A stretch of 61,882 bases of DNA from a virus. Positions 325 to 61,091 of this stretch are shown one piece after another. The notes under the pieces are model-generated. The model worked only from the letters and a program-made list of their open reading frames with translations. It was not told the origin of the DNA and did not search any database. Numbering within the stretch: position 1 is the stretch's first letter; each line of letters opens with the position of its first letter. A program made the translations under genes and the position numbers. Location: the IMG/VR virus record IMGVR_UViG_3300033148_008145, positions 1 to 61,882 of that record; one strand, 5' to 3'.

Positions 325-332
325 ATGTGTAA
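325..332 (+). promoter_or_regulatory. late-promoter-like motif ATGTGTAA
   Basis: This is a variant of the AGTGTAAT motif found before many genes here, placed 10 nt before the ATG at 343. The same gap separates the motif from the start at 27416, and 9 nt separate it at 5635. Its first three bases form an ATG in frame with the next gene, but reading them as regulatory rather than coding fits the pattern better. Confidence 0.45.
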
Positions 333-342
333 AATAAGCTGT

Positions 343-540
343 ATGAAAAAATTATCGGGTAAGAAAACTTACTTTACTGCCGCCGCTGCCGTCATAACCG
401 CATTAGGTGCGTATTTTGCTGGCGGGGTTGATTTGACCGTTACTATTCAGTCTGTTTTTGCAGCTCTGATGGTAGTGTTCCTGCGCAAGGGCGTTACGTC
501 AGAAGCAGCAAAAGCTGCCACGGAGAAACCGGCCGAGTAA
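343..540 (+). CDS. small two-helix membrane protein, holin-like
   Basis: A 66-residue protein with two hydrophobic segments, about residues 8-26 (Ala-rich, ending AYFAG) and 30-48 (VTIQSVFAALMVVFL), then a charged Ala/Lys/Glu tail. Size, topology and position before an overlapping charged/lipoprotein pair suggest a holin that permeabilises the inner membrane at lysis. This is inference, since holins share little sequence. The ATG at 325 would add six residues (MCKISC), but those bases coincide with the recurring promoter-like motif, so the start at 343 is preferred. The stop overlaps the next start as TAATG, indicating translational coupling. It could also be another small phage membrane protein. 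Confidence 0.6.
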   Translation: MKKLSGKKTYFTAAAAVITALGAYFAGGVDLTVTIQSVFAALMVVFLRKGVTSEAAKAATEKPAE

Positions 541-749
541 TGGGATGGCTCTCATCTATCCTAGGTATCCTCAAATCTTTCTTCAGTTTTTTGGACAAAA
601 AAACCTTGACAGAGGAGGAAAGGGTTGCTAAGGAAAAGAGGAGCCGCAAGGAGCAGGTGAAAGATGATTGGAAAGATACCCAAAATGAGATTGATAACGC
701 TTTTGAGCGCGCTAAGTCTCGTAATAGGGTGCGCGACTCCAAAGAGTAG
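540..749 (+). CDS. small amphipathic/charged protein, possible inner-membrane spanin-like partner
   Basis: A 69-residue protein. Residues 1-18 form a hydrophobic or amphipathic helix (WLSSILGILKSFFSFL) and the rest is a highly charged Lys/Glu/Arg helix of likely coiled-coil character. It starts inside the stop of the holin-like gene and its 3' end is overlapped in another frame by a lipoprotein gene. This nesting resembles phage Rz/Rz1 spanin pairs, in which a membrane-anchored coiled coil bridges to an outer-membrane lipoprotein. It is shorter than typical i-spanins and its N-terminal helix is weak as a transmembrane anchor, so the role is only a suggestion. Confidence 0.5.
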   Translation: MGWLSSILGILKSFFSFLDKKTLTEEERVAKEKRSRKEQVKDDWKDTQNEIDNAFERAKSRNRVRDSKE

Positions 750-909
750 CGTAATATCTATTCCGAGTGTCCCCCAAGACATTGTCCAAAGGATGTTGAG
801 TCATTACCAGATCGACAAGGCTTGGGATGCTGCTCCAGAATTTACGCGTGATGCGTTAAAAATAATTTCAGATCAGGCTGCACAGCTTGAACTGAGAAAC
901 ACAGAGTAA
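664..909 (+). CDS. lipoprotein with lipobox, o-spanin-like
   Basis: An 81-residue protein with a lipoprotein signal: a basic start, a hydrophobic core (LITLLSALSLVIG), then Cys23 in a LVIGC lipobox. The residue after Cys is Ala, so in a Gram-negative host the mature protein would be sorted to the outer membrane. The first 86 bases overlap the preceding gene in a different frame, as in Rz/Rz1 pairs. An internal ATG at 685 would give a shorter signal beginning MRLITLL and is an equally good start. A lysis role (outer-membrane spanin) is inferred from architecture and context; superinfection exclusion is an alternative. Confidence 0.6.
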   Translation: MIGKIPKMRLITLLSALSLVIGCATPKSSVISIPSVPQDIVQRMLSHYQIDKAWDAAPEFTRDALKIISDQAAQLELRNTE

Positions 910-915
910 TATATT

Positions 916-1221
916 ATGAAGAAAATAATCGTTATTGGTCTGCTTTTAGGCTTGAGTACCCTCAGTCTTCAGGCAGAAGAGACAAAGGAAAAGTGGTTTG
1001 ATTTAGGTGTTAAGCCGGATCCACATATCACTCTTCCTTTCATTGGGGTAAAGACCCCCCTTCCTACCGTTTGCGCGGGAAAAGGTGTTTCGACATCGTT
1101 CGACGTCAAGGTTAGTAAGGAAAGTTTCATGTTGAAGCTTCCTTATTTTAAGATTGATTGGAGCTTCCCTGCGTTGTCTGTGGGAAGAGGCAAAGCTAAG
1201 GTTACTTTGGGTACGGAGTAA
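916..1221 (+). CDS. secreted/periplasmic hypothetical protein
   Basis: A 101-residue protein with a classical Sec signal peptide (MKKIIVIGLLLGLSTLSLQA, cleavage expected after Ala20). The mature part is about 80 residues with alternating hydrophobic positions that suggest beta structure. I do not recognise a family. It closes the cassette of envelope-directed proteins and is followed by an intrinsic terminator. Export of three consecutive products (holin-like, lipoprotein, this one) suggests a shared role at the host envelope, either lysis or modification/exclusion. That is context, not homology. Confidence 0.65.
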   Translation: MKKIIVIGLLLGLSTLSLQAEETKEKWFDLGVKPDPHITLPFIGVKTPLPTVCAGKGVSTSFDVKVSKESFMLKLPYFKIDWSFPALSVGRGKAKVTLGTE

Positions 1222-1259
1222 TCCTTTCTAAATAACGTAAGCTAATAAGCTTTAACGTG

Positions 1260-1294
1260 GCCCTAGGTTTAATCCCCTAGGGCTTTCTTTTTTT
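1260..1294 (+). terminator. intrinsic terminator after the lysis-like cassette
   Basis: A perfect 8-bp stem, GCCCTAGG (1260-1267) with CCTAGGGC (1276-1283), encloses an 8-nt loop and is followed by a T-rich run (1284-1294). It lies 38 bp past the stop of the secreted protein and 16 bp before the next promoter-like motif. Confidence 0.85.
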
Positions 1295-1310
1295 CCATTT
1301 CTATAAAAGA

Positions 1311-5111: not shown

Positions 5112-5134
5112 TAGCCTTTATATATCTTTTTGCA

Positions 5135-5170
5135 GCCCCGGCCCGAAAGGGTCGGGGTTTTCTATTTTTT
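5135..5170 (+). terminator. strong intrinsic terminator after the capsid gene
   Basis: A 9-bp GC-rich stem, CCCCGGCCC (5136-5144) with GGGTCGGGG (5149-5157, one G-T pair), is closed by a GAAA tetraloop and followed by TTTTCTATTTTTT. It is the strongest terminator in the window and would insulate capsid expression from the fibre genes. Confidence 0.92.
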
Positions 5171-5178: not shown

Positions 5179-5186
5179 TGTGTATC
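5179..5186 (+). promoter_or_regulatory. late-promoter-like motif ATGTGTAT
   Basis: A variant of the motif directly after the capsid terminator, 25 nt before the ATG at 5212. A second related block, GGTGTAAG (5201-5208), lies 3 nt before the start. The leader carries ATAAGG as a possible ribosome binding site. Confidence 0.45.
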
Positions 5187-5617: not shown

Positions 5618-5625
5618 AGTGTAAT
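5618..5625 (+). promoter_or_regulatory. late-promoter-like motif AGTGTAAT
   Basis: An exact copy of the motif, ending 9 nt before the ATG at 5635. The 9 intervening bases (TCAACTCTA with T) contain no Shine-Dalgarno sequence, so an mRNA started here would have almost no leader. Confidence 0.6.
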
Positions 5626-6007: not shown

Positions 6008-9000
6008 ATGAGCAGCCAGACTGTAGTTGATGTCGTCATAAGCGGGACTACTGCTACGGTAGTAGATGCCCGAGTAGATGGTATCACTACAATTGCTGGT
6101 CCAGCTCCTATTGCTAATGTAAGTGGACAGGTGCCCGATCTCGGGGTGACTACTAGTTATTTGGCGGGACAAGGAGCAATACTGTCTTTAACCAATGATA
6201 TAGCTAACCTAAGGGCTAACGTTATAATAACCGGGCAAACTCTTACCGACGAAATTGGAGTTTTAAGTGGTGTCCTTATTTCCACCGGAAACTATTTAGA
6301 GTCAAACATCTTAACTTTAAGCGGGAATCTCATAGCTTCTGGTAACAATTTAGATTCTCTTAGAGATGTACTGAGCGGCAATCTCATCACAACGGGTCAG
6401 ACTTTAGAGGCCCAAATTACGAATAACGATACAGATATAGCCGACTTACTCACCAATTTAATAACAACTGGCCAGACTCTCCAAACTCAAATTACAAGCA
6501 ATGATGGAGATATTTCTACCATCACCAGTAATCTAGTTACTACAGGTGAAACCCTCACAACCGACATAAATAATGTGTCTGCAAATATCGTCTCAACTGG
6601 TAAGCTCGTAGATGATATAAGCGGAAATTTAATTGTTACTGGTCAGACGTTGCAAACTGAAATAACATCAAATCTTTCTACCCTCACAACTAATTTAATT
6701 ATAACAGGTAAGACCCTGCAGAGCCAAGTTACCAGTAATGATACTGACATTACTAATGTTAACTTAAGGTGTGACGCTATTGAAACGAGCGTTGCTACAA
6801 CTGGAAGTACGTTAACTAGCGAAATAAATATAGTCTCTGGATTGACGACTGGTAACGATGAAGATATCGTCGCTCTACAAACAGCGACGGGAATACTCAG
6901 GGCGGCAACTGATTCTAATGCCGCTAACCTTGTATTAACAGGTAGGTTTCTTGATTCTGAAATAGCTATTGTTTCTGGGATAGCTGGAGGGCAAGACCTT
7001 GTAAACCTGAGTGGAAGAGTGAATGTTATTAGTGGCAATTTAATTACTACTGGTCAAACCTTAACTACCGATATAAATGCCGTTTCTTCTAATTTAATAT
7101 TTACTGGAAGTATAGTAGATGATATAAGCGGAAATTTAATAGCAACGGGAAATACGCTTACCTCAGAAATAGCGATAGTATCTGGAATAGCTACAGGAGG
7201 TTCCGCTCAAGACTTTAGTGAGTTAAGTGGGAACCTGATAACAACAGGACAAACGTTGACCACTGATGTCAACACGCTCCAAACCCAGATTACCTCTAAT
7301 GATGGAGATATTACTAGTCTAAATTTGAGAGCTGATTCAATCGAAACGAATTTAATTTCTACTGGGAGCTTTGTTGATGATATTAGTGGAAATCTAATTA
7401 CCACCGGACAAACATTACAAACCCAGATTACTTCGAATGATTCTGATATCACTGATTTAACTAGCAATTTAATTACCACGGGCCAAACGCTTACAACCAG
7501 CATCAACAACGTTAGTTCTAACCTCATAACCACTGGACAAACACTTACTTCTGAGATAGCAATTGTGTCGGGGTTAACAACAGGTTCAGCCTCAGACCCC
7601 GCCTTAAGTGGAAAGGTAGATACATTAAGTGGTAATTTAATTACCACAGGGCAAACTCTTCAAGTACAAATCACTTCGAACGATAGCGATATCTCTACGT
7701 TAACTTCTAATCTCGTAACTACGGGTCAAACATTGACGGATGAAAAATTTGACAAAAGTGGGGGCACTATATCTGGAAACATTCTTCCTGATGTTACGGA
7801 AACATTAGATCTTGGTTCTTCCGCAAAGAAATGGGACAACCTTTGGGCAAAAGATGCTCATATCGATAGCGGTACATTATTTCTGGGTGAAGCCGGAGCT
7901 AACATAAAAGTAGTAGATAATAGAATTCAACTAGAAGGAGATTCAGCCGCAAAAGGGCCTCAATTCCAAGGTGATGTAATTATCACGGACGGGACATTAA
8001 CCGTAAGTGGAAACTTGGCAGTTACCGCAAATCAAACAGGAGTTCTAGCTACTTCTGCCAATTTGATTACTACGGGTGGAAACTTAGAAGCCCAGATAGC
8101 ATCCAACGACACTGATATTTCCAACCTCACGAGTAATCTGATAACCACTGGACAGACCCTCCAAACCCAGATCACTTCAAATGATGGGGATATAACTACC
8201 TTAACCAGCAATTTAATAACGACTGGTCAGACTTTAACTTCAGAAATAGCTATCGTTTCCGGAATAGCTACAGGAGGTTCAGCCGAAGACTTCGCTGCTT
8301 TAAGCGGGGACTTAATCACAACAGGTCAGACTTTACAAACGCAGATTACGAGCAACGACTCGGATATTTCGACGTTAACATCTAATTTAATTACCACAGG
8401 ACAAACGTTACAGACTCAGATTACCTCTAATGATGGAGACATTACCAATCTAACCACCAATCTCATTACTACTGGTCAGACGCTCACGAGTGAGTTAGGT
8501 ACAGTATCGGGGCTCATTACTGATAATGATGCAGAAATTGCTGCTTTGTTGGCGGCTACCGGAGAACTTAAGACGGATACTAACACAAACGCTTCTAATC
8601 TCGTAACGACAGGACAGACTTTAACTACAAACATAAATACTGTATCCACTAATTTAGTTTCCACGGAAAGCGTAGTGGACGACATCAGTGGCAATCTGAT
8701 AACAACTGGGCAAACTTTGCAGACCCAGATTACATCGAATGATGGAGACATAACCTCACTCACGAGTAACTTGATAACTACTGGACAGACATTACAAACG
8801 CAGATTACAAGTAACGATGCAGATATCGCCACCTTAGATTCCACAACAGTTAAAATTACAACTGATCAAAGTGTCGCCGGAAACAAAATCTTTACCGATA
8901 AGGTAATCATTAACAACCTTACCGTAACAGGTACAGAGGTAATTGTTGATGTAGAGAATTTAGCAGTTAGGGATAATATAATTCATATTAACAGCGGCGA

Positions 9001-12000
9001 AAGCGGCGCTGGGATTAGCCGCATATCCGGGGGCATAACGATAGATCGAGGTACAGAACCTTCGGCGAACATTTTATATAACGACGCTAACGATAGATTC
9101 GAGTTGAACTTTCCTTTGGCGACAGAGGGGAATGTGGTAGCAGCCGCAGCTAACTTAATTACCACAGGTCAGACTCTCACCACAAGCATAAACACCGTAT
9201 CCACCAACCTTGTCTCGACGGGCAAAGTTGTTGACGATATTAGCGGGAATTTAATCACGACGGGTCAAACACTGCAAACGCAGATTACCGCCAACGATGC
9301 TGATATTTCAACCAATGTGGGTAACATTGCTACCAATGTTAGTGATATATCATCCCTTACAACCAATCTTGTTGCAACGGGTCAAACACTACAAACACAG
9401 ATCACATCGAATGATGGTGACATATCCACACTTACAAGTAATCTGGTGACCACGGGTCAGACCCTTACAACCAACGTTAACACCGTCTCATCCAATTTGG
9501 TTTCTACCGGTGCGATTGTTGATGACGTTAGTGGGAACCTGATTACAACTGGGCAGACATTACAAACCCAGATTACGTCCAATGATACGGACATTACGAA
9601 TTTAAGTAGTAACCTAGTTACTACTGGTCAGACGCTCACTACAAACATAGATACTGTTGCCACTAATCTTGTGACGACTGGCCAGACTTTAACTTCGGAG
9701 ATAAATACCGTCTCGGGATTGATTCCTCCTACTGTTGTGGATGGGGCGGGAGTTACGGGGTATACCGCGAGATGGTATGATGGTAACACATTAACGACGG
9801 GTGTTTTATATGATAATGGAACTAATGTCGGTATCGGTACCTCAAGCCCGCAACGTCTTCTTCACGTAAATGGGGATGCCATAATTAGCGGTAAACTTTA
9901 CGATCAAACCAATTCGACGGGAGATAAAGGTTACGTCCTCACAAGCGACGACAACGGTCCGCTCTGGAAAGCTTCGGGAGACTTTGACGGGTTAAGTGTA
10001 AACTTGATTACGACCGGTCAAACGTTGACTACGAACCTGATCGCAACTGGCGTGTTCGTGGATACGAACACGGCCGGTGTCGCCACCAATGTAGCGAACC
10101 TAATCGCAACGGGTGCGTTTGTCGATACGAACACGGCCGGTGTCGCCACCAATGTAGCGAACCTAATCGCAACGAACGCATCGAACCTAATCGCAACGGG
10201 TGCGTTTGTCGATACGAACACGTTGGGAATCGCTACCAACGTAACGGCTATCGCCCTTAACGCATCGAACCTAGTCTTAACGGGTGCGTTTGTCGATACG
10301 AACACGGCTGGTGTCGCCACCAATGTAGCGAACATCGCCACTAACGCATCGAACCTAGTCTCAACGGGTGCGTATTTGACTTCCGAAATAGCTATCGTTT
10401 CCGGTATCGCCGAAGCTCATACGGATTTGACCGCGACCGGTCACATCATCGACTTGTTAAGCGGGGACTTGATTACGACCGGTCAAACGCTGACGACGGA
10501 CATCAATGCGGTTGCGTCGAACCTAGTCTTAACGGGTGCGTTTGTCGATACGAACACGGCTGGTGTCGCCACCAACGTAACGAACCTAATTACGACCGGT
10601 CAATATTTAACCGATGAGATAATTACTGTCTCCGGATTGATTCCCGCGACTGTTGTCGATGGAGCGGGGGTTACAGGGTATACTGCGAGATGGTTTGATG
10701 GTAACACATTAACGACAGGAGCTTTATACGACAACGGAACTAGGATTGGTATAGGGAATGATGCGCCCGACTATACTCTTGATGTTGCTGGCACCGTGGG
10801 CATCGACAACTACATCTACCATAATGGGGATAACGATACTTACCTAAAATTCGACACCGATGAAGTTAATTTAGTTGCTGGTAATTGGTCTGCTTTAAAG
10901 CTTGATAAAGCAACCGGAAAAATTCAGTTGAATAATACAAATGCCGATCTTGATTTGCAAGTGATGGCAGATGATGGTGAAGTAATTTTACACACAGATG
11001 CGGGTACGAACAAAGTAGGTATTGTTGCTGGTGGTGATGTTCAAATTCTTTCGGTAGACCCGGGTCCCGGCACTTCCAATCCTACAGATGGCAGATTACT
11101 TTTTGATAAAGTATTTGATAATAGCGGCGAAGCCACTGCTAACAAGATTGTTCTTTACGATGATGGTGGAGTGGGGGCTCAATGGAAGGGCGGTATTGGT
11201 GTTAGTTCAAGCGATATAGATTTCTTTTCGGGAGATAATTTCAGATTTTGGACAAATCATGGGTCAACTACTGAAGGTGACAACAGGCTTACAATTTTGG
11301 CTGACGGCAAAGTTGGCATCGGAACCACTACGCCAGCCACAACCCTTCATCTTTATACTACTTCTGGTAATAATTATCTAAAAATAGAAAACCAATCAAC
11401 AAGCCAAGCGGCTTTATGGTGGAAAACGGGTACAACAGACGCTAGTTGGATAGCTTACATTCCTTCGTCGTCTTCGGATTTAAGGTTATACGCTGGGGCA
11501 GATAAGGTTACTTTTAAAACTGACGGCAAAGTTGGTATCGGGACTATTACGCCAGCTGGATTACTTCACTTAAGAGTAAGTAGCGGTGCTTTAAATACAT
11601 ATTATGATGGAGATGGAGATAAGATTTTATGGTTCCGTACCGCGTCTGGGACTGCTCAATCAGAGTGGAAAGTAGACGCGGCCAAAACTTGGATAACAAC
11701 AAGAGGGACACTGCCGCTAAAATTTGGTACAAACGATACCCTTGCTCTAACTATTGATGGCTCGTCTCAAGCAGCCACATTCAGCGGTACGTTAACGGGT
11801 ACAAGTGCTACGTTCACGGGCGTAATTACCGCTGACGCTGGTTTAGTCCTCAATGATAATGATAAGATTAAGCTAGGGACTAGCGGTGATCTGGAGATTT
11901 ACCATGATGGAAACAATTCATTCATAAAAGATGCCGGAACAGGTGGGTTATATATTTATACAAATACTCTTGCTGTAACAAATGCTGCTGGTAATGAAAA

Positions 12001-15000
12001 CATGATATACGCCACCGAAAACGGCGCTGTAACTCTTTATCATGATAACGCTGTAAGACTAGCCACTACTTCAACTGGCGTAGCTGTTACTGGTGGCGTT
12101 GTAGCTACCTCCACAATTCAAGTGAGCCGTTCCAGTGCCTCACCGTTGTTTCAAGTAACTGACGCTGACGCTGGTGGTGGAGCTAAAAGTCGTTGGTTTG
12201 GGTTAGTGGATGGGACAAGTCGGTTCGCCATTTATGGCACTAATGGTACAACTGAAGAATTTAAGTTGGATGATGGAGGCGCAGCCACATTCAGCGATAC
12301 GCTCAACATAGCCAGCGGCAATCTCCAAATAGGGGGGACCAATATAATCAACTCTGGTCTGGCTATGTACAACTTGGAATCATTCAAGTTGGCCGATACC
12401 AAGAAAGCGTATTTTGGGTCGAGTAATGATTTAGAAATTTATCATGATGGTTCTCACTCTTATATTTCAGATCAAGGTGCAGGGTATTTAAGAATAAAAG
12501 CATCCAGTTATTTGCAGTTGATGGCTAGTGATGGCGAAGTATATATAAACTGCGAGGCTAATGGGGCAGTATATTTATCATACGACAACTCTACTAAACT
12601 AGCTACAACTTCAACAGGCGTAACTGTTACTGGAGCTTTAAAGACTACAACAATTTTAGATACTAATAACAGCGCCGGAACTAATGGACAAGTTTTAACC
12701 ACTACCGGCTCCGCTCTGGATTGGAAGACTTTGGCTGAGATTTCTGGTGTCGATGGAACTGGTACTGCAAACTACCTTTCGAAGTGGACAGATACAGATA
12801 CGATAGGCAACTCGAGCATTTTTGATAATGGAACAAATGTCGGCATCGGGACGGCTTCACCTAACTACAAACTGGAACTTTCATTTGCGGCTGGAAATCA
12901 TACTACTGGCATGGCGATTACGAATACCCAAGCTGGTGGCTATGGTAATGCACTTAATTTCGTATCCAAAAGAAGTGACGATAGCTCGCTCAATATTGCG
13001 GCACGAATCCGAACTGAAGGTGCTTCTTCTTGGAATACTGACGCTTCAACAAGCACCAATTTGAAATTTGAGACTGTATCCGCAGATACTGTGGCTACAA
13101 GAATGACCCTTCTTCATAACGGCAATATTGGCATGGGAACTCCTTCGCCTTCTGAAAGGTTGGATATAGAGTGGACTGATGGAGCCAACTATTCATCAAG
13201 TAGCGTTACTGAAGGAGTAAACATAAAACTCTCCAATGTTCAGAGTAATACGAATGGAGTCGCAGGGTTAATTTTTGGTGCAAGGTCAACTACCACTAGT
13301 TATGCTAAAGTTGGAGCAGAGGTAACTGGTAATGGAAATATAGATTTATTCTTTCAGACGGAAGGTAGTGGTACTATTGGTGAAAGAATGCGTATTAAAG
13401 CTGACGGCAATGTTGGCATCGGGACTACTGCGCCATCCGTCAAGCTTCATGTTGCTGGAGCGGTGACGGTTGATGGTGGCGGTGCTGCGCAAGCAGCGAA
13501 TACTAACGCTGATGATCTAGTGATTAGAGGCGACGACAACCGGGGTATCTCGATAATAACAGGAACAAACAAAGACGGGCGAATAGTTTTTAGCGACACA
13601 GCAGATACGGTAGTAGGTGGTTTACGGTACGATCATGGTGTCCCCCATATGCAGTTGCTAACTGAAGGTTCAGTTGCCCTTACGCTTAATGGTTCTCAAA
13701 ACGCCACATTCAGCGGCGCGGTGGTGGCTACAGGAGCGCTGACGGCTAACGGACTGTTTTACGTAAACAATTTAGCACAGATAGCGCAGTCAAAGAGTAG
13801 CACAACTGATCCAACTAGCAACATAATGCTTCAGTTGAAGAACACCAATACCACAAACAATGTTTATAACACCCTGATGTTCAAGGATGCGCAGGGTAAT
13901 GATGGTGCGTGTCTTTCAGCAAGGCATACAGACCATACTGGCAACAAGGCGGGTATAGGGTTATGGACTAGGGACGGAAGCAACTTGATTGAAAGGATGA
14001 CCATTGCTCCGGGTGGAGCAGCCACGTTTAGTGGAACATTAGGAGTTACAGGTGCTATTACTGCATCTTCTATGACAAATACTCTAGGGAGTGCAGTAGC
14101 GTCTACCAATCTTCAAACTATATTAAATGGGGTAGCCAGTAAGGCCAATAGGATTAAATTTCAAGAGGGTGGTGTTGACAAATGGCTTCTTGGTCAAGGT
14201 GCAGCATCAGAAACAAGTGCGTTTGAACTATACAACGCAGTTGGCGTTATAGCTATTAGTGTCAATAGGACTTCAAGCCTTACAACATTAGGGGCGGGAC
14301 TAGCAGTTACAGGAACGGGTACGTTCAGCGGTGCGCTGACGGGCACTAGTGCTACGTTCAAATTAGATGCAGGGCTTACCCTTGAACGCACATCAGTTGA
14401 TTCAAGACTGCGGATGTTCAATACGGGCGGTGAATGGATTATTGCTTCGACCTACGGGTCTACTGGAGCGTATGACCCAATTAAATTTCAAACAAGTGAT
14501 GTCACTAGACTTACGATTGCTGCTAATGGAGCATCCACATTCAGCAGCACGGTTCGGGCCGAGGACAGGTTTGATCTTTATGACGGGACAAAGGTTTGGC
14601 AAATTAAAAATGTTAGCGGAACTTTTAGTTTGCGAAACGGAAATACGGGAGCGATTCCTATATCTATTACTAGCGCAGGAGTATCCACATTCAGCGGTGA
14701 TATTAAAATAATAAAAAGTGATGCGCAACTTTTCCTTGATGGAGGAAATGTTGAGGGATATTTCTATATGGCAAGTAGCGCAGCTTACCTAAGAACAACA
14801 ACCGCTCACCCATTATATATTGGAACAAACAATTCTATTGACCTTACGATTATCTCTGACGGCAATGTTGGCATCGGGACAACTGCGCCAAGTGCGGATC
14901 TTGAAGTGTCAACAGCATCTGGAGGAGAATTCTTAGTAACAAAATCTGGTAGCTCTGGTGTCACTTTACAGCAAGTCAATGGCGGTGATGCGACCTCTGG

Positions 15001-17896: not shown

Positions 17897-17930
17897 AAAA
17901 TGAAAATATACAATATCATAAAAAATGAAA
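17881..17930 (+). repeat. perfect 25-bp tandem duplication at the fibre ORF junction
   Basis: Bases 17881-17905 and 17906-17930 are identical. Each copy contains the TAA that stops the first fibre ORF and an ATG preceded by A's. The second copy supplies the ATG at 17925. Removing one copy would place the two fibre ORFs in the same frame, separated only by TAA AAA. Confidence 0.95.
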
Positions 17931-27399: not shown

Positions 27400-27405
27400 T
27401 GTAAT
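27398..27405 (+). promoter_or_regulatory. late-promoter-like motif AGTGTAAT
   Basis: An exact copy of the motif, overlapping the stop of the fibre gene and ending 10 nt before the ATG at 27416. The gap TTCTATAAAT has no Shine-Dalgarno sequence. Confidence 0.6.
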
Positions 27406-29960: not shown

Positions 29961-29968
29961 ACTGTAAA
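29961..29968 (+). promoter_or_regulatory. possible weak late-promoter motif ACTGTAAA
   Basis: A degenerate copy of the motif 27 nt before the tail tube ATG. The leader has a good AAGAAGGA ribosome binding site and an AGTATACT palindrome. The spacing matches the long-spacing class of motif sites. Confidence 0.35.
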
Positions 29969-31269: not shown

Positions 31270-31299
31270 AAAAGTCCCTCTCACGAGGGACTTTTTTTT
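31270..31299 (+). terminator. intrinsic terminator after the tail tube gene
   Basis: AAAAGTCCCTC pairs with GAGGGACTTTT around a TCAC loop (31281-31284) and is followed by a run of T's. A promoter-like motif begins 8 bases later. Confidence 0.92.
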
Positions 31300-31306: not shown

Positions 31307-31314
31307 AGTGTAAT
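31307..31314 (+). promoter_or_regulatory. late-promoter-like motif AGTGTAAT
   Basis: An exact copy of the motif just after a terminator, 26 nt before the ATG at 31341. The leader contains ATATAAGGTATAAGG, giving AAGG ribosome binding sites. Confidence 0.65.
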
Positions 31315-33440: not shown

Positions 33441-33448
33441 AGTGTAAT
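33441..33448 (+). promoter_or_regulatory. late-promoter-like motif AGTGTAAT
   Basis: An exact copy of the motif, 13 nt before the tape measure ATG. A CTAGGAAT stretch gives a weak AGGA ribosome binding site. Confidence 0.6.
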
Positions 33449-41471: not shown

Positions 41472-42334
41472 TTTCTATTCTCTAATCGGGTTAGACGTTT
41501 CTCCATCTCTTGGAATCTTTGATCAATAGTTTCCATTGCTTTATTATAGATGGAGTGGGCAGATATGGTTCTTGGGGGCATCAGGGGTATTTTATTAATG
41601 GGCGAAAAATCTTCACATGTCTGGCATGGGACATTGGTAACAGAGGAGGCTGCGTATTCCCTGCTTAAATGAATAACACTCTTTGAGAGTATGAGTTCCC
41701 CGCTTTTAATTTCCGCTGGAAAGGAGTAATTTAGGTAAAGGAAAGTTTTCCCGTCCTTGTAATGCACACTTTTAAAGTCTCGCTCGAAAATAGAAGTTTC
41801 CGCCGCTTGATCAAACTCCATTTCTATTTGAATGACGTTTCCGTCTTCATCTTTTGCTGTGACAGGATTTTCCGGAGGAGTAAGGTATCGACCCGGATTT
41901 TCTATTTTGAGTTCTTGAACCGATTTGTCTTTGTTTGCGCTGGTAACCCTTAACGTGGTTGGTTGGCCGTTCAAATTATCCGAAGTGTTGGAAAGGAACC
42001 CTCCTTTTACAAGAAAAGTATCATCAAATTGGTGTTTTTTTCCTCCGTCAACTATCTTGGTTACAGAAACCGCTTCACTTTCGCTGAAATATAATTTTGC
42101 ATTGTCGCCCGGGGAAATTTTGTAGCTATAATCTCCTTTTATGGTGAGGTGATTAACGCAAGACTCAAACCTTTTTTTTAAATTAAGTTTCTTCGATGTT
42201 TCTATCTGGTAAAATATTTCATTTTTTCCAATCTTTACAAAGGTTCCGTTGCCAGCAACCACATCGTATTCACTGGAAGCATAGAGTTCGTTGGATCCTT
42301 CGTTGATTGTCCCCTTAAAAAATTGGGATTTCAT
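41468..42334 (-). CDS. hypothetical tail-tip-associated protein with C-terminal coiled coil
   Basis: A 288-residue protein, beta-rich over most of its length, with a CQTC pair near residue 238 and a C-terminal helix (ETIDQRFQEMEKRLTRLEN) that should form a coiled coil, perhaps for trimerisation. It follows the J-like gene on the same strand, where lambda-like phages code fibre or tip accessory proteins. A sigma70-like promoter candidate lies directly before its ATG, so it may be expressed separately. The stop overlaps that of the tape measure gene in TTAA. I recognise no family. Confidence 0.65.
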   Translation of the reverse strand: MKSQFFKGTINEGSNELYASSEYDVVAGNGTFVKIGKNEIFYQIETSKKLNLKKRFESCVNHLTIKGDYSYKISPGDNAKLYFSESEAVSVTKIVDGGKKHQFDDTFLVKGGFLSNTSDNLNGQPTTLRVTSANKDKSVQELKIENPGRYLTPPENPVTAKDEDGNVIQIEMEFDQAAETSIFERDFKSVHYKDGKTFLYLNYSFPAEIKSGELILSKSVIHLSREYAASSVTNVPCQTCEDFSPINKIPLMPPRTISAHSIYNKAMETIDQRFQEMEKRLTRLENRN

Positions 42335-45300: not shown

Positions 45301-48300
45301 TGGCCGAACGCCTTTGATTATTAAAAGCAAAGACGGCTACCCAATAATTAGTATCTTTATTAAGAAATTCCTCTGCAAAGAAAGCAGATAGGGTTCCGTC
45401 TGAGGAAATTGCGTTGCCTCCATCTGCTATTTTTGAGCCCGGATTGCCATTTATTGTTATAAATTCGCGCCCTTTATAGTTTCCCCACTGGTCGTTGCTA
45501 ACCGGCCAAAGAAGAGTCGAACCTCGTTCAGCAGTAAACAAAGTTGAAAGAAGATTTACATCACCGAAAGGCGGGTGGGTGCCCACGTCATCCAATACTA
45601 ATTGTTCATAAATGAATACTCCATAAGACATTGCGTTAACAACCAAGCTGGATTCTGTGTCGTCAATTTCATAGCTGTCACGATCACCTTGTTGTTCGGG
45701 GGCTTTCGTTTTTAGTCCGGCTTGAGGTATGGTTACTTCAAGAGTATTGAATTTATCTTTTTCGTTACTCGTAAGAGGTAACGATGCAGGCTCATCCTCT
45801 TGGGCGTGAGGACCTCCTTTTTCTATTATGGTTCCCCATGAGTAATAATTACTCCCCTCTTTATAATACGGCCAAATAGGAGGTTCGGATTGAATTGGAT
45901 TGTCAAATTTTAATCGATTTTCAACCTTGTCATACTTTCCTGAGGCGTAAGCCAATGCGGAAACATTATAGGTGGTATCCTCGTCGTTTTCAGCTACGTT
46001 TATAATCCGGTAGTTGGATAGGTTTCCACTAATGAACTCCGGTGCGGTAGGGTCGTTAGGTTCAATGCTCCACACTAGATTTTCGCCGGAGAAACATCCT
46101 CCTGAATACGACATTATAATTGGTGCATCTGGTCCCTGAACGTAGTTGTTTGTATATCCTGTAATTACATAATTCTCGAAATCTAATTGGTTGCCTGTTC
46201 CAATGGGTTCCCCTCCCTCTACTATCAGACCGGTATGAAAATAAATTTGTGTGGCTATTCCGCTGCCGCCTTCCTCGTAATCTGATTTGTAATATCCTGT
46301 TACGGAAAGGGCATGACTTCCTTCGAAGTAAAGGGTTTGAAGTTGTGATCTTCTTATTTCAGTGATATTATTGGAGTCTAGATCAGAGATGTCCGCCGCT
46401 TCGTAATTATAGGTTGGAGTAAGAAGAGAAAACTTATAGACTTGGTTGGTGGTAAACTCAACAACGTTGTCTATTATTACACTGTTACCCGTTATGGAGC
46501 CATCTTGATCTGCGGGGGGAGTTGTCCAATCTATTGAGCTCGGGGCGACGCCCGTTCCAATAACGCTGTTGGTTCTTCCTCCAAGCTTAAGTGGAGTTCT
46601 GTACTGGTCATAAATTTGAACAATGTCTCCCGGTTTTATATAGGCTCCGTCCTGACCTACGGTAAAAGTGACACTTTCGGTTTCGTCGGCTTCGCTGGCC
46701 AACACCCATTGACCAAGCCTGCGCGCCTGCCCGCGGCTGGTTACACCCAAGGCCGACGTTTCTATTTGCCGGATACCGTATCTTTTTATAGACTCCTCGT
46801 TTTCTACATACTCAACGGTGGGAACAAACAGGTTGTGTTTATCAATATACCTAACAATGGCTACGCTGTGACGCGCTTTTTTCGAAGAAGAGGAATAGGA
46901 GAAATTTCCTTCAATTACATTGGTATTATTGAATTGATAGAGGGGTTTTTTGAATGCATCCTGTACTGCAAAGATAAGGCCATTGGCATAATATGCTATA
47001 CCCCGAAAAACAGATGCCAGATTGTTTACTGCCTGATATGCTTCTTCACGGGAAGTCATGATATGATTCATCGTGAACCTTGGTTCGATTGAACCGTAGC
47101 CATCAGGGACAAGAACGTCACAATATTGGGCTATTTCATATAAAGCCCATTTGTCTACTTGGGGTTCGCTTATGTATTCCCCCAAACCATATCTTGGATT
47201 AGTTAGTAAATCATAGAAGCACCATGCTGGGTTATCTGTCCATTCCTTAATTATTAATGGGTCGGTGTCAGTAGCTAAGGCTGCTCCTTCTGGCCACACA
47301 GAAACCTGTTTGAATCCTCCATCCCAAAAGTTATCCACTTCTGTTGTGCCAGAGTAACCTTCTGTGGTTGCTCCGGTTTCGGCAAATACTGGATCAGCGT
47401 GGTTGGAGGTTCCGGCGATTCCCCCCTGCCTTGCTCCAAATTTGTAAGCAGCTCCTGATGTGAGAGTTCCGTAATTTGTGATTTTGTATGGGGTGGGAAA
47501 AGCTGTTGTGGCCGGGGTGAAGTTGGCGGTGTAAGGGGCTTCTCCGATTGTTATGCGGAATTCATCTATGTATCCTTTGAAGTACTGTGAAGAACCCGAC
47601 TCATACTCTCCTATGGTGGAAGCTGCAGTAGCAGTCTTGATGGTGTCTGATGCTGTGGCATTTCCGTAACTGGTTCCATCTATATAAACTTTAAAGTCAT
47701 TACCGTTTCTTACGGCCGCTATGTGGTGCCATGTGTCCACAGTTAAAGCTTGGGTGGTAGTGATGGTTGCAAATTCAGAGCTGTCACTCGCCTTTTTATT
47801 TCGCAAGACTACTTTTCCGTCTGTGTTTATTTGTAAGTAAATTACCCCATTCGAATCAAAAATCATTTGAATAGCAGAAAAAGATCCGCTGTCTGGCCTT
47901 ACCCAACATTCAATTCCCCAACTGGAATTACTCCATGCAAATGAAGAACCGTCGTTTGCCCCTAATGTTGCGCTATCTTCGGTTCCATCTAGGTAAAGGC
48001 TGGAAGCTCCAAATTTCTTTTCTGTCGTGGAAAGTTCAGCGTCTGCATTTAAAGTGATTTGTATTGGGTAAGTACTTGAGTCGACCGTAGTCTCATCGCC
48101 GTTGGCTCCGTCAAAATGCAAAAGGCTGTGGGTGTTAACTTCTTGATAAAAGTTGGCTGGGTAAGTTATATCTGGGGTGTCCCCAGTTAAGTATAGTTTT
48201 GCTCCCCCCTCGAATGTGACTACTTGGCCAGTCTTAAGGCGGGATTTTACTTTTACACTTTGGGGCCACGTAGCGTCATTCACGAGGATGGCGTCGCTTA

Positions 48301-49462
48301 TGCCATAAGTTTTTTTGATAGGGTCGTAATTGTTTGGAACTTTAACCTTTATTAATTGGGTGTCATATGACCTACTAGGGATGCGGTTAAAAAATTCCGC
48401 GTCAAATTTAGAGTAGACCATTGCGCTATACGGATAGCGAAGTTTTGTCCCATATATTTCCACTAAAGACTCTACGTATGATTGGTTCTTAAGATAGGCT
48501 GTTAATGACTCGGGGGTAATCCGGATTATTTTTATCCTCCAACCGACAAAGCCGGGTATGGTGGTATAATCTGTTACGTTTTGATTTGTTACACCGCTTC
48601 GGTTTAAGTGGATTTTTGAGTTTCTTATGTATACTTGCTCTACATTACCGATTATCTTTTCGTGTCGGGGACCCTCCCATTTTTGCGGGGTTGTATCAGC
48701 GGCAGGCGTAGAGGTTGAGGAAACTAGGTTGAACCTGTCATCAAAGATAGGCTGCCAATAAATATAATACTCTATGGTGCGAGCCTTGACATCTCCATAT
48801 CCTACTGGGGCGGGTTTTCTTCCCACCTTTTGGTCGCGAGGGGCATCCTCGTTTCTTATTTGTTCAAAAAGCTGGGTGACTTTTATTCTTACTTCAACGG
48901 TGGTGCATTCTTTATTAAGGATCGTATAAGTTTTGGCTACTGTATCCACAGCAGTGCTATCTGCCAAGCCATCAAGGTTAGATGTATAGGAGCCTCCCTG
49001 AGTAGAGAGTCCGTAAAGCCTCTCCCCGATGGGTCTTTCAACGGTAAGGTCGAGGGTTTCACTTGCAGGTAAATCACTTCGTAATTCAGGCAGATTTCCT
49101 TCCGGGTCCCCCTTGTGGTATTCGACGTTTATGCTGGAATAGTTGTAATATCCGTTTTGATCCACAACTGGCAAGTCGTTCCAATAAACTGAGCGCAAAA
49201 ACCCCAGCTCGGTGGAGAGTGTTCCAGACGTTCCTGTTGTTGCGTAAGGGGTAAAACCTGTTTCATAGAAGCCTGTGTCACCTTGAGTGCCGTTGTAGGT
49301 ATAGGAGCCGCTGACAAGACCTTCCATTACTCCTTCGCAAAGTAAGTCAACTACCTCCGCTGAGGAATCCACAACTTGTAGATTGCCGTTAACAGAAACC
49401 CCGCGTTGGTCCGTAATTACGTTCCGCGCTTCCTTTTCGTCTCCTCCGCCAAATAAACCCAT
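42383..49462 (-). CDS. J: tip attachment/host specificity protein J-like, with LamG insertion
   Basis: A 2359-residue protein. The N-terminus (MGLFGGGDEKEARNV...VVDLLCEGVMEGLV) and the region around residues 750-1000 (a 'DNPAWCFYDLLTNPRYGLGE' stretch, then EAYQAVNNLASVFRGIAYY and IKPGDIVQIYDQ) are typical of the lambda gpJ hub family, which forms the tail tip and binds the receptor. A concanavalin/LamG-like domain (about residues 444-655, with WGIECWVRPD, WHHIAAVRNG and GYIDEFRI) is inserted into the hub region. The long C-terminal half is beta-rich and Asn/Asp/Pro-rich, probably fibre-like receptor-binding domains. It starts one base after the I-like gene. The symbol is by lambda analogy. 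Confidence 0.85.
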   Translation of the reverse strand: MGLFGGGDEKEARNVITDQRGVSVNGNLQVVDSSAEVVDLLCEGVMEGLVSGSYTYNGTQGDTGFYETGFTPYATTGTSGTLSTELGFLRSVYWNDLPVVDQNGYYNYSSINVEYHKGDPEGNLPELRSDLPASETLDLTVERPIGERLYGLSTQGGSYTSNLDGLADSTAVDTVAKTYTILNKECTTVEVRIKVTQLFEQIRNEDAPRDQKVGRKPAPVGYGDVKARTIEYYIYWQPIFDDRFNLVSSTSTPAADTTPQKWEGPRHEKIIGNVEQVYIRNSKIHLNRSGVTNQNVTDYTTIPGFVGWRIKIIRITPESLTAYLKNQSYVESLVEIYGTKLRYPYSAMVYSKFDAEFFNRIPSRSYDTQLIKVKVPNNYDPIKKTYGISDAILVNDATWPQSVKVKSRLKTGQVVTFEGGAKLYLTGDTPDITYPANFYQEVNTHSLLHFDGANGDETTVDSSTYPIQITLNADAELSTTEKKFGASSLYLDGTEDSATLGANDGSSFAWSNSSWGIECWVRPDSGSFSAIQMIFDSNGVIYLQINTDGKVVLRNKKASDSSEFATITTTQALTVDTWHHIAAVRNGNDFKVYIDGTSYGNATASDTIKTATAASTIGEYESGSSQYFKGYIDEFRITIGEAPYTANFTPATTAFPTPYKITNYGTLTSGAAYKFGARQGGIAGTSNHADPVFAETGATTEGYSGTTEVDNFWDGGFKQVSVWPEGAALATDTDPLIIKEWTDNPAWCFYDLLTNPRYGLGEYISEPQVDKWALYEIAQYCDVLVPDGYGSIEPRFTMNHIMTSREEAYQAVNNLASVFRGIAYYANGLIFAVQDAFKKPLYQFNNTNVIEGNFSYSSSSKKARHSVAIVRYIDKHNLFVPTVEYVENEESIKRYGIRQIETSALGVTSRGQARRLGQWVLASEADETESVTFTVGQDGAYIKPGDIVQIYDQYRTPLKLGGRTNSVIGTGVAPSSIDWTTPPADQDGSITGNSVIIDNVVEFTTNQVYKFSLLTPTYNYEAADISDLDSNNITEIRRSQLQTLYFEGSHALSVTGYYKSDYEEGGSGIATQIYFHTGLIVEGGEPIGTGNQLDFENYVITGYTNNYVQGPDAPIIMSYSGGCFSGENLVWSIEPNDPTAPEFISGNLSNYRIINVAENDEDTTYNVSALAYASGKYDKVENRLKFDNPIQSEPPIWPYYKEGSNYYSWGTIIEKGGPHAQEDEPASLPLTSNEKDKFNTLEVTIPQAGLKTKAPEQQGDRDSYEIDDTESSLVVNAMSYGVFIYEQLVLDDVGTHPPFGDVNLLSTLFTAERGSTLLWPVSNDQWGNYKGREFITINGNPGSKIADGGNAISSDGTLSAFFAEEFLNKDTNYWVAVFAFNNQRRSAKALIGLIPASNSNIASAQDTTIGKHQIQGDSAFSFIDGINVTSLTSDDLIGDTQVNTLNQLSSTQPSFSWDASSEYTLADDYNQLMDIPSYHEYRITIRKHDSNLSPNTPSNEIYVEITGYKPTEGSFVFFRDYNSPHVIEDLPNVAGAVSHSAGGHQWWEVKESGVIFRNDKNSFPLREFDIVVEAHDPAGLTSAGNNVGDNTIFGQKDTYTDGAEGYQKMSCNIGIPSGIVFAQGDSSSEVDALDDYFFLTPSQAYARKYPYVAKAALYNDGTLNLSIEPSTDRAGNRILNETQLSNSFSDVRGVVYYYSTGDNTLIDERVKTDEGLGEVIFNPKNKAPRFDLYPNNIPTSQILGYQGEVNYMTAADWGPAPGPNEFIQWNVALGVPGVAHFDSLKNAENNAAFQSYRNFYVFDNSTDAANITIPFPDIGEPSVQNIQLTIALFDSLTYFEHFNSDGTPKTTLIDNSSYADPNPDYPYPAWNGKELIPTLFTDKNMNFSTFPQKIYTDGDTGTAVEWGDEEEGFGPNAEGSPIFLKERSLQTQGQDALAYRAWFDVTLDPGELKLMMDFDQNHFKDNVSYRGGYIRKQISAGKYEVVLDPKKNKLKGFSKMIFEETSLRYPPGSSPNAFLLAGKLSLYFDDTVGFDPEQYTVDVEFSQCDIASAYLGNRRYNVLKISDSRDPLAEENQLNPNTRDFVTSSTDLPRCYLYEKGRGYITFYLAPFMLKSYSTYIMDRMRSGQVDWCVEAFYVGQDNNYNTAGCAGLNCDAFLSYPNPEKNSDGEYIYPYIKNFNGQAVVTSCRRIHDFYPYQKLGAAARGGYNTIEKVTYSRYKGVEGNLDDLTRSANIKIASYFWDTGTQKVLAWGKPLGATIDFMGGVQKQNGTEIIQNIYFGYLANGTLPNIHLPDRVGNVFVEQLKAGQKGYEVGTFLKNVAGYTDTDYDTNRNAFIGNIIKLRGGILLSDKLGGKVN

Positions 49463-52839: not shown

Positions 52840-52847
52840 ATTACACT
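52840..52847 (-). promoter_or_regulatory. late-promoter-like motif AGTGTAAT (leftward)
   Basis: An exact copy of the motif on the minus strand, 25 nt before the M-like start. The leader includes AAAGGATTAAGGG. It forms one arm of a perfect inverted repeat with the rightward copy at 52855-52862. Confidence 0.65.
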
Positions 52848-52862
52848 TAAAAACAAGTGTAA
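52841..52862. repeat. inverted repeat forming a divergent promoter pair
   Basis: TTACACTT (52841-52848) and AAGTGTAA (52855-52862) are perfect 8-bp inverted copies separated by 6 A-rich bases. It lies midway between the divergent genes starting at 52814 and 52878. Confidence 0.85.
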
Positions 52863-52863
52863 A
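52856..52863 (+). promoter_or_regulatory. late-promoter-like motif AGTGTAAA (rightward)
   Basis: A near-exact copy of the motif, 14 nt before the ATG at 52878. GATAAGG supplies a short ribosome binding site. Confidence 0.6.
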
Positions 52864-53718: not shown

Positions 53719-53726
53719 AGTGTAAT
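53719..53726 (+). promoter_or_regulatory. late-promoter-like motif AGTGTAAT
   Basis: An exact copy of the motif, directly after the stop of the previous gene and 15 nt before the ATG at 53742. TATAGG is a weak ribosome binding site. Confidence 0.6.
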
Positions 53727-54615: not shown

Positions 54616-55890
54616 ATGTTATACTCCGCAAACAACGCCAAGCTGAAGCTTAACAATAAAGAGGTCCTTGCTTCGAACGCAGAATTATCGTTGGGGGCTT
54701 CTCTTGCTGCTAGCTATCTAATGCAAGATAGACATACCACTACTTTCGCATCTTCGAATGGGATAGGGGGGACGTTAAACTTTAACTTTTATCTTACCGG
54801 AAAAGATTTCATTAAGTCGTTTGTTACGGGGCAAGGGGAGATTCCTCAAGGCGAAAGCCAAAAAATTTCAGGGAATTTCGGGGGGTTGAATTTTGATAGC
54901 GGTTATTTGACGTCTTATTCAGTTAATTTCTCCCCCAATTCTCCGGCTGTTGCCTCCGCTAGCATAGCTTTTTTTTCTGATTTAGAAGGGGAATTCAGTT
55001 CGACCAGTTCGGCACCGCCTTCAGATGTGGACGTATTGAATTTTTCTAATGCCGCTATTACATCACAGCTGGGAGAAAATATAGTCAATGATTTTATAGC
55101 CGGTACTTATAATTACAGCGCAAGCGTAGCTCCCGTTTATTTAATGAACGAAACTAAACCAAGCCGGGTAAGTTTTGGGGAGAAAACCATAAGCGCGAAT
55201 TTTGAAATCGATAACCCCACGGGAACTCTACCTTTTACTGGGTCAGATGCTAAAATTGAGGTGGGGTTGAAAAAATTTGACAACGAACAAATTAGCATGG
55301 GGAATTGGACTTTAAGGGCTGGGGCAGCTAATGATAATTATGATCCTTTTAATTCTTCTTCTGATAATGGAGATGTTTCTGCGACTTGGGATGGCCCCGG
55401 TTATGGTATAGCTGATTCGACTCCCTTTGTAGTCAACCCGAGTGAGGTTTTTACCGTTTCTTTTGATTTAGCTTTAGAGAATGCTGCCCCACAATTTCAA
55501 CTCATTAATTATGATGGAACTTTAAAAAAGGGATGGTCAACCGCTCAAACGTTGTCTAACGGTTCAAACTCTTTTACTGTTACTGTAAGCCCTACGGATG
55601 AAAGCGTAATAATAAACAGGGGTGAGTACGCTGCATTTCAAATATGGAATTCAAGTACTTCGGAGTGGACGTTAACCAACTTAAAAGTAGTTCGTACAAC
55701 TTCTCAGCCCTCGGAGGTTTTCTCGTGTTCGGGAGTAATGCAGAGTCGAAGCGTAGCTTCTGCAGCGGGAGATTACATTAAACAGAGTATAAATATTATA
55801 GAAAATAACGTTGAGGAAACGAATTTTTTTGCATCTTATATTATTGACGCAAGTAATAACGCAGAAACCTTGGATGTCGAGGAACCCTAA
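54616..55890 (+). CDS. tail-tube-like paralog 3 with extra domain
   Basis: A 424-residue protein. Residues 96-102 (GYLTSYS) and the later SVAPVYLMNETKPSRV segment match the two-part tube layout. An insertion at about 220-370 (WTLRAGAANDNYDP ... EWTLTNLKV) looks like a beta-sandwich carbohydrate-binding-type domain placed within the second half; its boundaries are approximate. Such inserted domains project outward from tail tubes of other phages. The gene lies four bases after paralog 2 and six bases before the TIG-repeat protein, suggesting a common complex. Confidence 0.62.
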   Translation: MLYSANNAKLKLNNKEVLASNAELSLGASLAASYLMQDRHTTTFASSNGIGGTLNFNFYLTGKDFIKSFVTGQGEIPQGESQKISGNFGGLNFDSGYLTSYSVNFSPNSPAVASASIAFFSDLEGEFSSTSSAPPSDVDVLNFSNAAITSQLGENIVNDFIAGTYNYSASVAPVYLMNETKPSRVSFGEKTISANFEIDNPTGTLPFTGSDAKIEVGLKKFDNEQISMGNWTLRAGAANDNYDPFNSSSDNGDVSATWDGPGYGIADSTPFVVNPSEVFTVSFDLALENAAPQFQLINYDGTLKKGWSTAQTLSNGSNSFTVTVSPTDESVIINRGEYAAFQIWNSSTSEWTLTNLKVVRTTSQPSEVFSCSGVMQSRSVASAAGDYIKQSINIIENNVEETNFFASYIIDASNNAETLDVEEP

Positions 55891-59690: not shown

Positions 59691-59696
59691 CTGCAA

Positions 59697-60275
59697 CTAT
59701 AAATCTTTATACAAATCCAAACAGTGGGGATCTTTTTTGAGTCGGCCCGATTTTTCATATGCTTCTTTGCGGATTTCAAGCGGAAGACAGTGCTTGTTTC
59801 TCGCCCAATTTGTCATTTTCCGGAAGCAGTTTTCCGTTCGAGAGAAGAACCTGTATTTAAAGGAGTGTCCTCGGTAGGCGTCGAATATTTCTTGTTCTGT
59901 GTCCCACATTTTTTGTGTTTCTTCTGATTCTTCTTTGGTTGACTCCAGACGAAAGCTAATAAGCTCTTTTTTGTCTACTTTTCCGTTTTTGAAAGTGAAT
60001 TGGCATTCGAGTCCGTATGCGTCTCCTTTTTTGTTTTGTAGGTGGTCGTAAAAACGAATGGTGACATTCTTTTTTACTTTTTCCCACTCTTCAAAAGGCA
60101 GCGCTTCCTTCTTTTTCTTATAGAGGTATTGGCGGTAGATCTTGTAAAGATCCATTAGGTTGTCTAGGTCTTTCGTTTGGAAGGTGTGGTTTTTGTCCAG
60201 CAGCTTCTCGTCTTCTTTGTTTAGTAGGCTCCGCAGATACCCCTTCGGCACCATTATCTCGTCGAACATTCCCAT
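59697..60275 (-). CDS. hypothetical protein, MGMFDEI-type start
   Basis: A 192-residue Lys/Glu-rich soluble protein beginning MGMFDEIMVPKG, a start seen in many small phage proteins of unknown function. It has three charged helical segments and a Cys- and Trp-containing C-terminal third (TENCFRKMTNWARNKHCLP). A GGAAAAAA sequence precedes the ATG. It is directly followed by the antitoxin-like gene. Early or accessory phage functions are likely, but none can be named. Confidence 0.65.
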   Translation of the reverse strand: MGMFDEIMVPKGYLRSLLNKEDEKLLDKNHTFQTKDLDNLMDLYKIYRQYLYKKKKEALPFEEWEKVKKNVTIRFYDHLQNKKGDAYGLECQFTFKNGKVDKKELISFRLESTKEESEETQKMWDTEQEIFDAYRGHSFKYRFFSRTENCFRKMTNWARNKHCLPLEIRKEAYEKSGRLKKDPHCLDLYKDL

Positions 60276-60465
60276 TTTTTTCCTTGTATGTGACTCCGCA
60301 TCCTTCTGATGCAGTGTATAAAGTTTCGTTTATGATTAAATTTGCTTTTTCAGAAAGGGGGTAGCTGTTTTTTAGCATCTCGTCAGCTATTGTTAGGGCC
60401 TCGTATTCATTGGTATTTTCTATTTCGAGGCTGCACAAGCAAGTAATTATGGTTTTTTTACTCAC
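60118..60465 (-). CDS. small hypothetical protein, 3' end overlapping its neighbour
   Basis: A 115-codon ORF starting at GTG (60465), 8 bases inside the end of the upstream gene. Residues 1-70 look like a normal protein (SLEIENTNEYEALTIADEML); the rest is Arg/Pro-rich and lies in the 158-bp overlap with the next gene in another frame, so it looks like out-of-frame translation. Either the real protein is shorter because of a frame error or sequence change near 60270, or the overlap is genuine. Confidence 0.45.
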   Translation of the reverse strand: MSKKTIITCLCSLEIENTNEYEALTIADEMLKNSYPLSEKANLIINETLYTASEGCGVTYKEKNGNVRRDNGAEGVSAEPTKQRRREAAGQKPHLPNERPRQPNGSLQDLPPIPL

Positions 60466-60676
60466 CGCCTTCGTTGAGTAGGGCTTCTGTGATGGAGGCG
60501 ATTTCGGTTACAGGGTCGTTTTCGTGCCCTACGTTAGCCAGTGGGACGATGTATTGGGCAATTTCGGGAGAAACCCCTTTGTTTATTAGAGAACGGTAGA
60601 GACTGTCTCCCTTCGCAAGGTATTCCCTTACCTCGGCTAGTAAAAGAGAATTGCCCCTTGTATGTTTGTTGTTCAA
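60458..60676 (-). CDS. small hypothetical protein
   Basis: A 72-codon ORF of likely helical protein (REYLAKGDSLYRSLINKGVS). The first possible start is TTG at 60676; no ATG is available near the beginning, so the exact start is uncertain. It ends 8 bases inside the next gene (GTG start). It has no recognised family and lies in the middle of a leftward operon of small genes. Confidence 0.5.
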   Translation of the reverse strand: MNNKHTRGNSLLLAEVREYLAKGDSLYRSLINKGVSPEIAQYIVPLANVGHENDPVTEIASITEALLNEGGE

Positions 60677-60695
60677 TTATGGTTATGGTAGGGAA

Positions 60696-60890
60696 TTATT
60701 CCCCCTTTTCAAAAATTTTTTTTAAGCTTTCTAGTTCTTTCGCAAAATCTGCAGCCATCTCCACCCTTACAGCGTCTTCGTCGTCCATCATCGGCATGTC
60801 CATTATTATTTTTTTATATTTTTTAATTAAATTGGCAATGGCTTGGTGTGTCTTACGGGGTTTTTTCCTTTCAAATTCTGAAATGTTCAT
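60696..60890 (-). CDS. small helical hypothetical protein
   Basis: A 64-residue highly charged, mostly helical protein with a good GGAGAAAAAGA ribosome binding site before its ATG. It overlaps the previous gene by 20 bases, indicating coupled expression. Acidic and Met-rich in the middle (MDMPMMDDEDAV). No family recognised. Confidence 0.6.
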   Translation of the reverse strand: MNISEFERKKPRKTHQAIANLIKKYKKIIMDMPMMDDEDAVRVEMAADFAKELESLKKIFEKGE

Positions 60891-61068
60891 TCTTTTTCTC
60901 CATATTGTTTCTGACCCTGCTTATTAGCCCTAAAAGCTCGTCTACTTTTACGAATTCTCCGTTAAGGACGCTTCCGCGATTGTTTCCCAGCTCTAGAGAG
61001 ACCTCCATGAGCTTGCATACAGCTTGTTTTAACATAACGGATTCTTCGCTATAGAGGAAATCTGACAT
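60871..61068 (-). CDS. small hypothetical protein, first gene of the leftward accessory operon
   Basis: A 65-residue mostly helical protein of unknown function (LKQAVCKLMEVSLELG). It is the first of six tightly packed leftward genes ending with the antitoxin-like gene. A relaxed promoter-like sequence lies 15 nt upstream. Confidence 0.6.
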   Translation of the reverse strand: MSDFLYSEESVMLKQAVCKLMEVSLELGNNRGSVLNGEFVKVDELLGLISRVRNNMEKKNEHFRI

Positions 61069-61083
61069 GCTTGTCTAAACTCT

Positions 61084-61091
61084 ATTACATT
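61084..61091 (-). promoter_or_regulatory. possible relaxed late-promoter motif AATGTAAT
   Basis: A one-mismatch copy of AGTGTAAT on the minus strand, ending 15 nt before the ATG at 61068. It is in the only gap of this operon, right after the glycosyltransferase gene. Confidence 0.35.

Follow-up and report, generated by a model that had tools for sequence, protein, structure and literature searches.

The question raised by a 61.9-kb viral fragment from a tail region (IMG/VR record IMGVR_UViG_3300033148_008145, positions 1 to 61,882; called the window here) is whether the short motif AGTGTAAT, which recurs in front of its genes, is a promoter, and which polymerase would read it. A preliminary description of the window had proposed a phage-wide late promoter consisting of a single block. 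Our analyses show that the motif is conserved and strand-specific, stands where gene units begin and has no -35 partner. Its core, GTGTAAT, is probably the on-switch of the particle-building genes in a large group of never-cultured phages and is probably read by a phage sigma factor; the label "late" is based on which genes are driven. Literature searches for the motif or for a matching late promoter returned nothing relevant.

The window contains seven exact copies of AGTGTAAT, where 2.06 ± 1.39 are expected by chance; one of 100 shuffles reached seven. Six copies are located before genes on the sense strand, 9, 10, 13, 15, 25 and 26 nucleotides (nt) from the ATG, and the seventh (46476-46483, minus strand) lies within the gene for a protein of 2,359 amino acids. 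Likewise, six of 14 GTGTAAW words fall into the 40-nt zones upstream of genes, which comprise 1.1% of the sequence (p = 5e-9). Since the window alone provides modest evidence, we collected relatives, that is, viral contigs found by homology to a protein of 1,194 amino acids and to the minor tail protein L. Among these are the large contigs G001 (144 kb) and G002 (170 kb). Eight further contigs (85-172 kb, 28-42% GC) from distant phages were reached via the protein sigma A, which is described below.

When 7-mers before genes were counted de novo on 33 contigs with simple gene calls, GTGTAAT ranked first. With duplicate contexts removed, the density of AGTGTAAT in these contigs is 141 per 100 kb within 40 nt upstream of genes, compared with 8.8 in the rest of the intergenic sequence, 0.6 inside genes and 0.7 antisense to genes; the motif is about 235 times denser upstream of genes than within them. 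The reversed word, used as a control, has a count of 0 upstream of genes. In each of the eight distant contigs the motif is likewise enriched upstream of genes (p values from 6e-8 to 3e-25). As the preliminary description had expected of a phage-wide signal, the motif is concentrated before genes in both contig sets, and enrichment was found outside the window in every large relative examined. Orthologous genes retain the motif though their flanks diverge. The consensus is WW-nGTGTAAW with the core GTGTAAT, and comparison of orthologs showed that the variants GTGTAGA, GTGTAT, CTGTAAA and AGTGTAAA are tolerated.

GTGTAAW precedes 2% of the packed internal genes (gap of 10 nt or less) versus 11-20% of the genes that follow a gap or strand switch (p = 9e-26), a comparison that is partly biased because a motif before a packed gene would overlap coding sequence. 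Antisense copies of GTGTAAW occur almost exclusively at strand switches. The flanks were analysed in 335 sites after duplicates in N-terminal peptide and upstream sequence had been removed; the other site samples overlap this set. From -55 to -6 no position is appreciably conserved across the 335 sites and therefore there is no -35 element, which confirms the earlier observation made in the window. Neither a conserved -35 box nor any other upstream partner was detected in 53 or 335 sites. The TTACAC words that are enriched upstream are inverted copies of the motif. Several early and replication genes carry TTGACT/TTGACA-type promoters instead of the motif, and the motif and the TTGACT-type sites occupy largely separate regions of G001 and G002. 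TTGACTT, an AT-rich -10 and a short-spaced GTTATG start context are common to several early genes at 133-143 kb of G001 and 104-112 kb of G002, whose mRNAs may also have very short leaders.

The distance from motif to ATG peaks at 7 nt (87 of the 335 sites) and 8 nt (38 sites), with shoulders at 9-11 and 13-15 nt and a broad tail that ends near 31 nt; the same 7-8 nt peak is present in the other, overlapping samples. Of the two spacing classes proposed for the window, short and long distances indeed exist, but they form a dominant short class plus a tail and not two equal clusters. A word resembling a ribosome binding site was found at one of 197 sites with a distance of 4-11 nt, at 12 of 91 with 12-20 nt and at 30 of 47 with 21-31 nt, a contrast that is partly forced because a motif 7 nt from the ATG leaves little room; among genes without the motif the fraction is 413 of 1,715. 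This agrees with the proposal that long-spaced genes have ribosome binding sites and several short-spaced ones do not. The near match to TATAAT suggests that the block is a -10 element; in that case transcription would start about 7 nt downstream of it, which would render the mRNAs of the short class nearly leaderless. Spacing and absent ribosome binding sites fit this part of the preliminary description, with the start sites themselves deduced from sequence.

Which factor could recognize such a block? A divergent sigma gene had been suspected elsewhere in the genome, and two sigma70-family proteins were found in the relatives. Sigma A is encoded by ten and sigma B by seven of ten large contigs, eight of which had been selected for encoding sigma A. 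Sigma A (G001: 38782-39384; G002: 54857-55456) is about 200 amino acids long and encoded near replication genes. Its region 2 matches PF04542 above the cut-off and its region 4 matches PF04545 below the cut-off; a profile match to SigA has E = 1e-6. The AlphaFold2 model has a mean confidence (predicted local distance difference test, pLDDT) of 81, and its Foldseek matches are sigma factors. Most of 42 members (alignment A3) end in D-x-I/V; otherwise they are about 35-80% identical to the first. T4 gp55 and gp33 have C-terminal tails that bind the clamp, and the D-x-I/V end is reminiscent of these.

Sigma B (G001: 120801-121484; G002: 129467-130174) has about 227 amino acids, with a cysteine cluster between region 2 and the region-4-like part, and relatives of it are found at 417 IMG/VR places. 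Region 2 matches PF04542 above the cut-off, and the sigma4-like part is seen in a low-confidence model; the fold matches are supportive in nature because this model is poor (pLDDT 59). The gene is part of a block with the order phoH-g129-sigmaB-g369-ERCC4-terL-portal, in which g129 has the motif at 7-8 nt. One homolog was found in a genome collection, on a contig of a Flavobacteriales metagenome-assembled genome that is possibly a misbinned virus. Judged by profiles and models, both proteins belong to the sigma70 family and combine regions 2 and 4. Searches of 50,697 phage records (INPHARED) gave no match to either. Sigma A is the more likely reader of the motif, and sigma B might be an alternative or a partner; sigma A is favoured because its gene follows a TTGACA/TTGACT-type site and is not among the late genes driven by the motif.

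The sigma A operon is headed by a conserved non-coding stretch of about 330 nt that follows a TTGACA/TTGACT-type site (L072: 386-860, minus strand, corresponding to G001 40387-40855; L080: 13430-13860, plus strand, corresponding to G002), and the stretch is also present in L117-L120, L202, L203, L206 and L211. RNAalifold predicts 62 pairs for eight relatives, 17 of them with compensatory changes, and no Rfam match was obtained for the stretch. It is a candidate for a new structured RNA, possibly controlling sigma A.

Altogether, we consider it likely that GTGTAAT is a single-block, -10-type core promoter of late genes (virion assembly, packaging and associated functions) in uncultivated tailed phages with lambda-like tail-tip genes, read by a host core enzyme that a phage sigma redirects. 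The single-block promoter with a phage sigma-like reader, one of the options named earlier, is supported by the sigma70-family genes of the relatives and by the lack of beta/beta' genes in the records searched. The phage-encoded sigma70-family factor would direct the host RNA polymerase core to GTGTAAT, and transcription would begin about 6-8 nt after the motif. Approximately 60% of the promoters (motif 4-11 nt from the ATG, mode 7) would then yield leaders of about 0-5 nt; the long-spaced promoters would give ordinary leaders, most with a ribosome binding site. Host-type TTGACT/TTGACA promoters would serve the early genes.

Apart from the two biases mentioned above, several points weigh against this proposal. 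The window itself encodes no sigma gene, and the sigma genes are found in relatives only. A sigma4-like part in both proteins makes the absence of a -35 element unexpected. Sigma A and sigma B cannot be separated by presence and absence, because the contigs without sigma B (G021, G022 and G027) also lack phoH, terminase and portal, i.e., the whole terminase block. Moreover, gene starts are predictions from a simple script and the contigs are fragments.

It is unlikely, though conceivable, that a phage RNA polymerase reads the motif, be it single-subunit, YonO-like or virion-packaged, with its gene inside a giant open reading frame or on a part that the contigs lack. Phage polymerases typically use promoters of a single block, no function is assigned to several proteins of 2,000-4,000 amino acids, and the nearest terminase relatives include SPbeta-like phages, which encode YonO. 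Against this, the beta/beta' subunits of multisubunit RNA polymerases (PF00562, PF00623) were absent from eleven records with positive controls, although the records may be fragments and YonO-type enzymes were not searched for, and sigma70-family genes are present instead. The T7-type polymerase family PF00940 had no match in the records, but the controls were silent as well.

A still smaller chance is given to the host polymerase acting with its own primary or alternative sigma and helped by a phage activator. TGTAAT agrees with TATAAT at five of six positions and the flanks are AT-rich; the mismatch, however, places a G at -11, where the primary sigma requires an A. Neither a -35 nor an activator site is conserved, early genes carry ordinary TTGACT-type sites, and the motif is constant in phages that range from 28 to 44% GC and probably differ in host. 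A host sigma70 promoter (-35 TTGACA, -10 TATAAT, A at -11) does not describe the sites, which have no -35 and the core TGTAAT. The least probable explanation is a translation-initiation or mRNA-processing signal, which would account for the fixed 7-8 nt distance to the ATG in many genes but not for motifs 21-31 nt upstream, mostly with a ribosome binding site as well (30/47), for their rarity before internal operon genes, or for copies after terminators and inverted pairs at divergent genes.

With a late promoter read by a phage sigma as the preferred reading, a more far-reaching version can be put forward tentatively, and we hold it to be somewhat less probable than its opposite: a widespread phage group would use a one-piece late sigma (sigma2, a sigma4-like part and a near-invariant D-x-I/V tail) that needs only GTGTAAT, and about 60% of its late promoters would be leaderless or near-leaderless with the 7-8 nt geometry. 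If the short-spaced class is leaderless, much of the late proteome would be made by leaderless translation. The motif would make late genes recognizable in a common group of environmental phages whose sigma A and B have no relatives in the phage collection, and the sequence alone could then suffice to predict late units and start codons. No isolate would be needed to test the late switch in vitro, as a fixed promoter and two candidate sigmas are available.

In the window, a scan located all exact copies that had been reported before genes. On the plus strand, AGTGTAAT is found at 5618-5625 (9 nt to ATG 5635; kept as CATATAGTGTAAT in three relatives; the gene has a PHROG match to L-shaped tail fibre assembly), 27398-27405 (10 nt to ATG 27416; kept in nine relatives), 31307-31314 (26 nt to ATG 31341, with the leader AAGGTATAAGG; degraded in G002, G006, G010 and G011), 33441-33448 (13 nt to ATG 33462 of a gene for 2,669 amino acids; kept in relatives) and 53719-53726 (15 nt to ATG 53742; kept in relatives). 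On the minus strand, AGTGTAAT at 52840-52847 lies 25 nt from ATG 52814 of the minor tail protein gene and is kept in relatives. Together with AGTGTAAA at 52856-52863 (plus strand, 14 nt to ATG 52878; kept in nine relatives) it forms an inverted pair at the divergent genes 52814 and 52878, which is likewise kept.

The variants reported before 343, 1331, 5212, 29996 and 52878 have conserved forms in relatives; the remaining ones are also on the plus strand. TGTGTAAA at 326-333 belongs to the short class (9 nt to ATG 343), and the G001 and G002 orthologs have tgtgtaag and tgtgtaat at the same place. TGTGTAGA at 1312-1319 is located 11 nt from ATG 1331; this variant, GTGTAGA, is conserved, and GTGTAGAATATATAGTA is kept in G001, G002 and G010. 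The long-class variant TGTGTATC at 5179-5186 (25 nt to ATG 5212) directly follows a terminator, and GTGTAT or GTGTAC is kept right after the terminator upstream of the ortholog in G001, G002 and G010; GGTGTAAG, which is nearer to 5212, is a ribosome-binding-site sequence in relatives. ACTGTAAA at 29961-29968, also written CTGTAAA, lies 27 nt from ATG 29996, with a ribosome binding site present. This site is conserved in some relatives (AACTGTAAATTA in G013, G003 and G001, related forms in G008 and G010), and the motif is not recognisable in G002, G006, G009 and G011. A terminator scan found the intrinsic terminators that were said to directly precede three copies, with plus-strand hairpins at 1259-1284, 5134-5159 and 31270-31295. 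The tentative variant before 61068 is not supported, since it is not conserved in relatives, and the copies described inside genes (5260 and 9995) do not match the motif exactly.

The tail genes of the window match the lambda-type J, I, K, L and M families. Giant open reading frames are located at 6008-17896 (3,962 amino acids), 17925-25259 (2,444), 33462-41471 (2,669) and 42383-49462 (2,359), the last of which includes a tail-tip J-like region. Upstream of a gene for 288 amino acids (41468-42334, minus strand) a TATAAT-like box about 9-12 nt before the ATG at 42334 is kept in several relatives; it is either a host-type -10 or another block variant. No Rfam match was found anywhere in the window. 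G001 also encodes a tubulin/FtsZ-family protein adjoining a DnaB-type helicase (L070: 15196-16455, minus strand) and a DNA polymerase III alpha subunit.

Late promoters of phage AR9 have the motif AACA-N6-TA/G, are read by a phage multisubunit polymerase and give leaders of 26-491 nt (PMC5312081). Like the phiKZ and AR9 late motifs, GTGTAAT is short, near the presumed start site and present in many copies genome-wide; unlike there, beta/beta' genes were not found and the spacing to the ATG is short. In SPO1, a cascade of phage sigmas (gp28, gp33/gp34) reprogrammes the host polymerase stepwise, and middle promoters have -35 and -10 elements. The two sigma-family proteins resemble this arrangement, whereas a single phage-specific block is present here, and no promoters of a third class were observed. 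T4 late promoters consist of one block near -10 without a -35, drive virion genes and are read by the host core together with a sigma-family protein of the phage (PMC2988020). The 335 sites share this single -10-like block without a -35. The T4 late promoter sequence is TATAAATA, however, and the consensus here is GTGTAAW. T4 splits the sigma2 and sigma4-like parts between gp55 and gp33, whereas sigma A and sigma B each appear to combine them in one chain; a gp33-like protein was not searched for. The bacterial beta-clamp family had no match in ten records, with gp45-type clamps not searched, and a host clamp could serve. The frequent 7-8 nt spacing to the ATG is a further difference. The earlier comparison with T4 thus stands for the functional likeness but not for sequence and factors, and because sequence and sigma architecture differ the system is not a member of the T4 late system. 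The absence of a fused late-transcription sigma in T4-like phages has been posed as a puzzle (PMC2988020); if the one-piece sigma proposed here is real, it would be this missing fused sigma.

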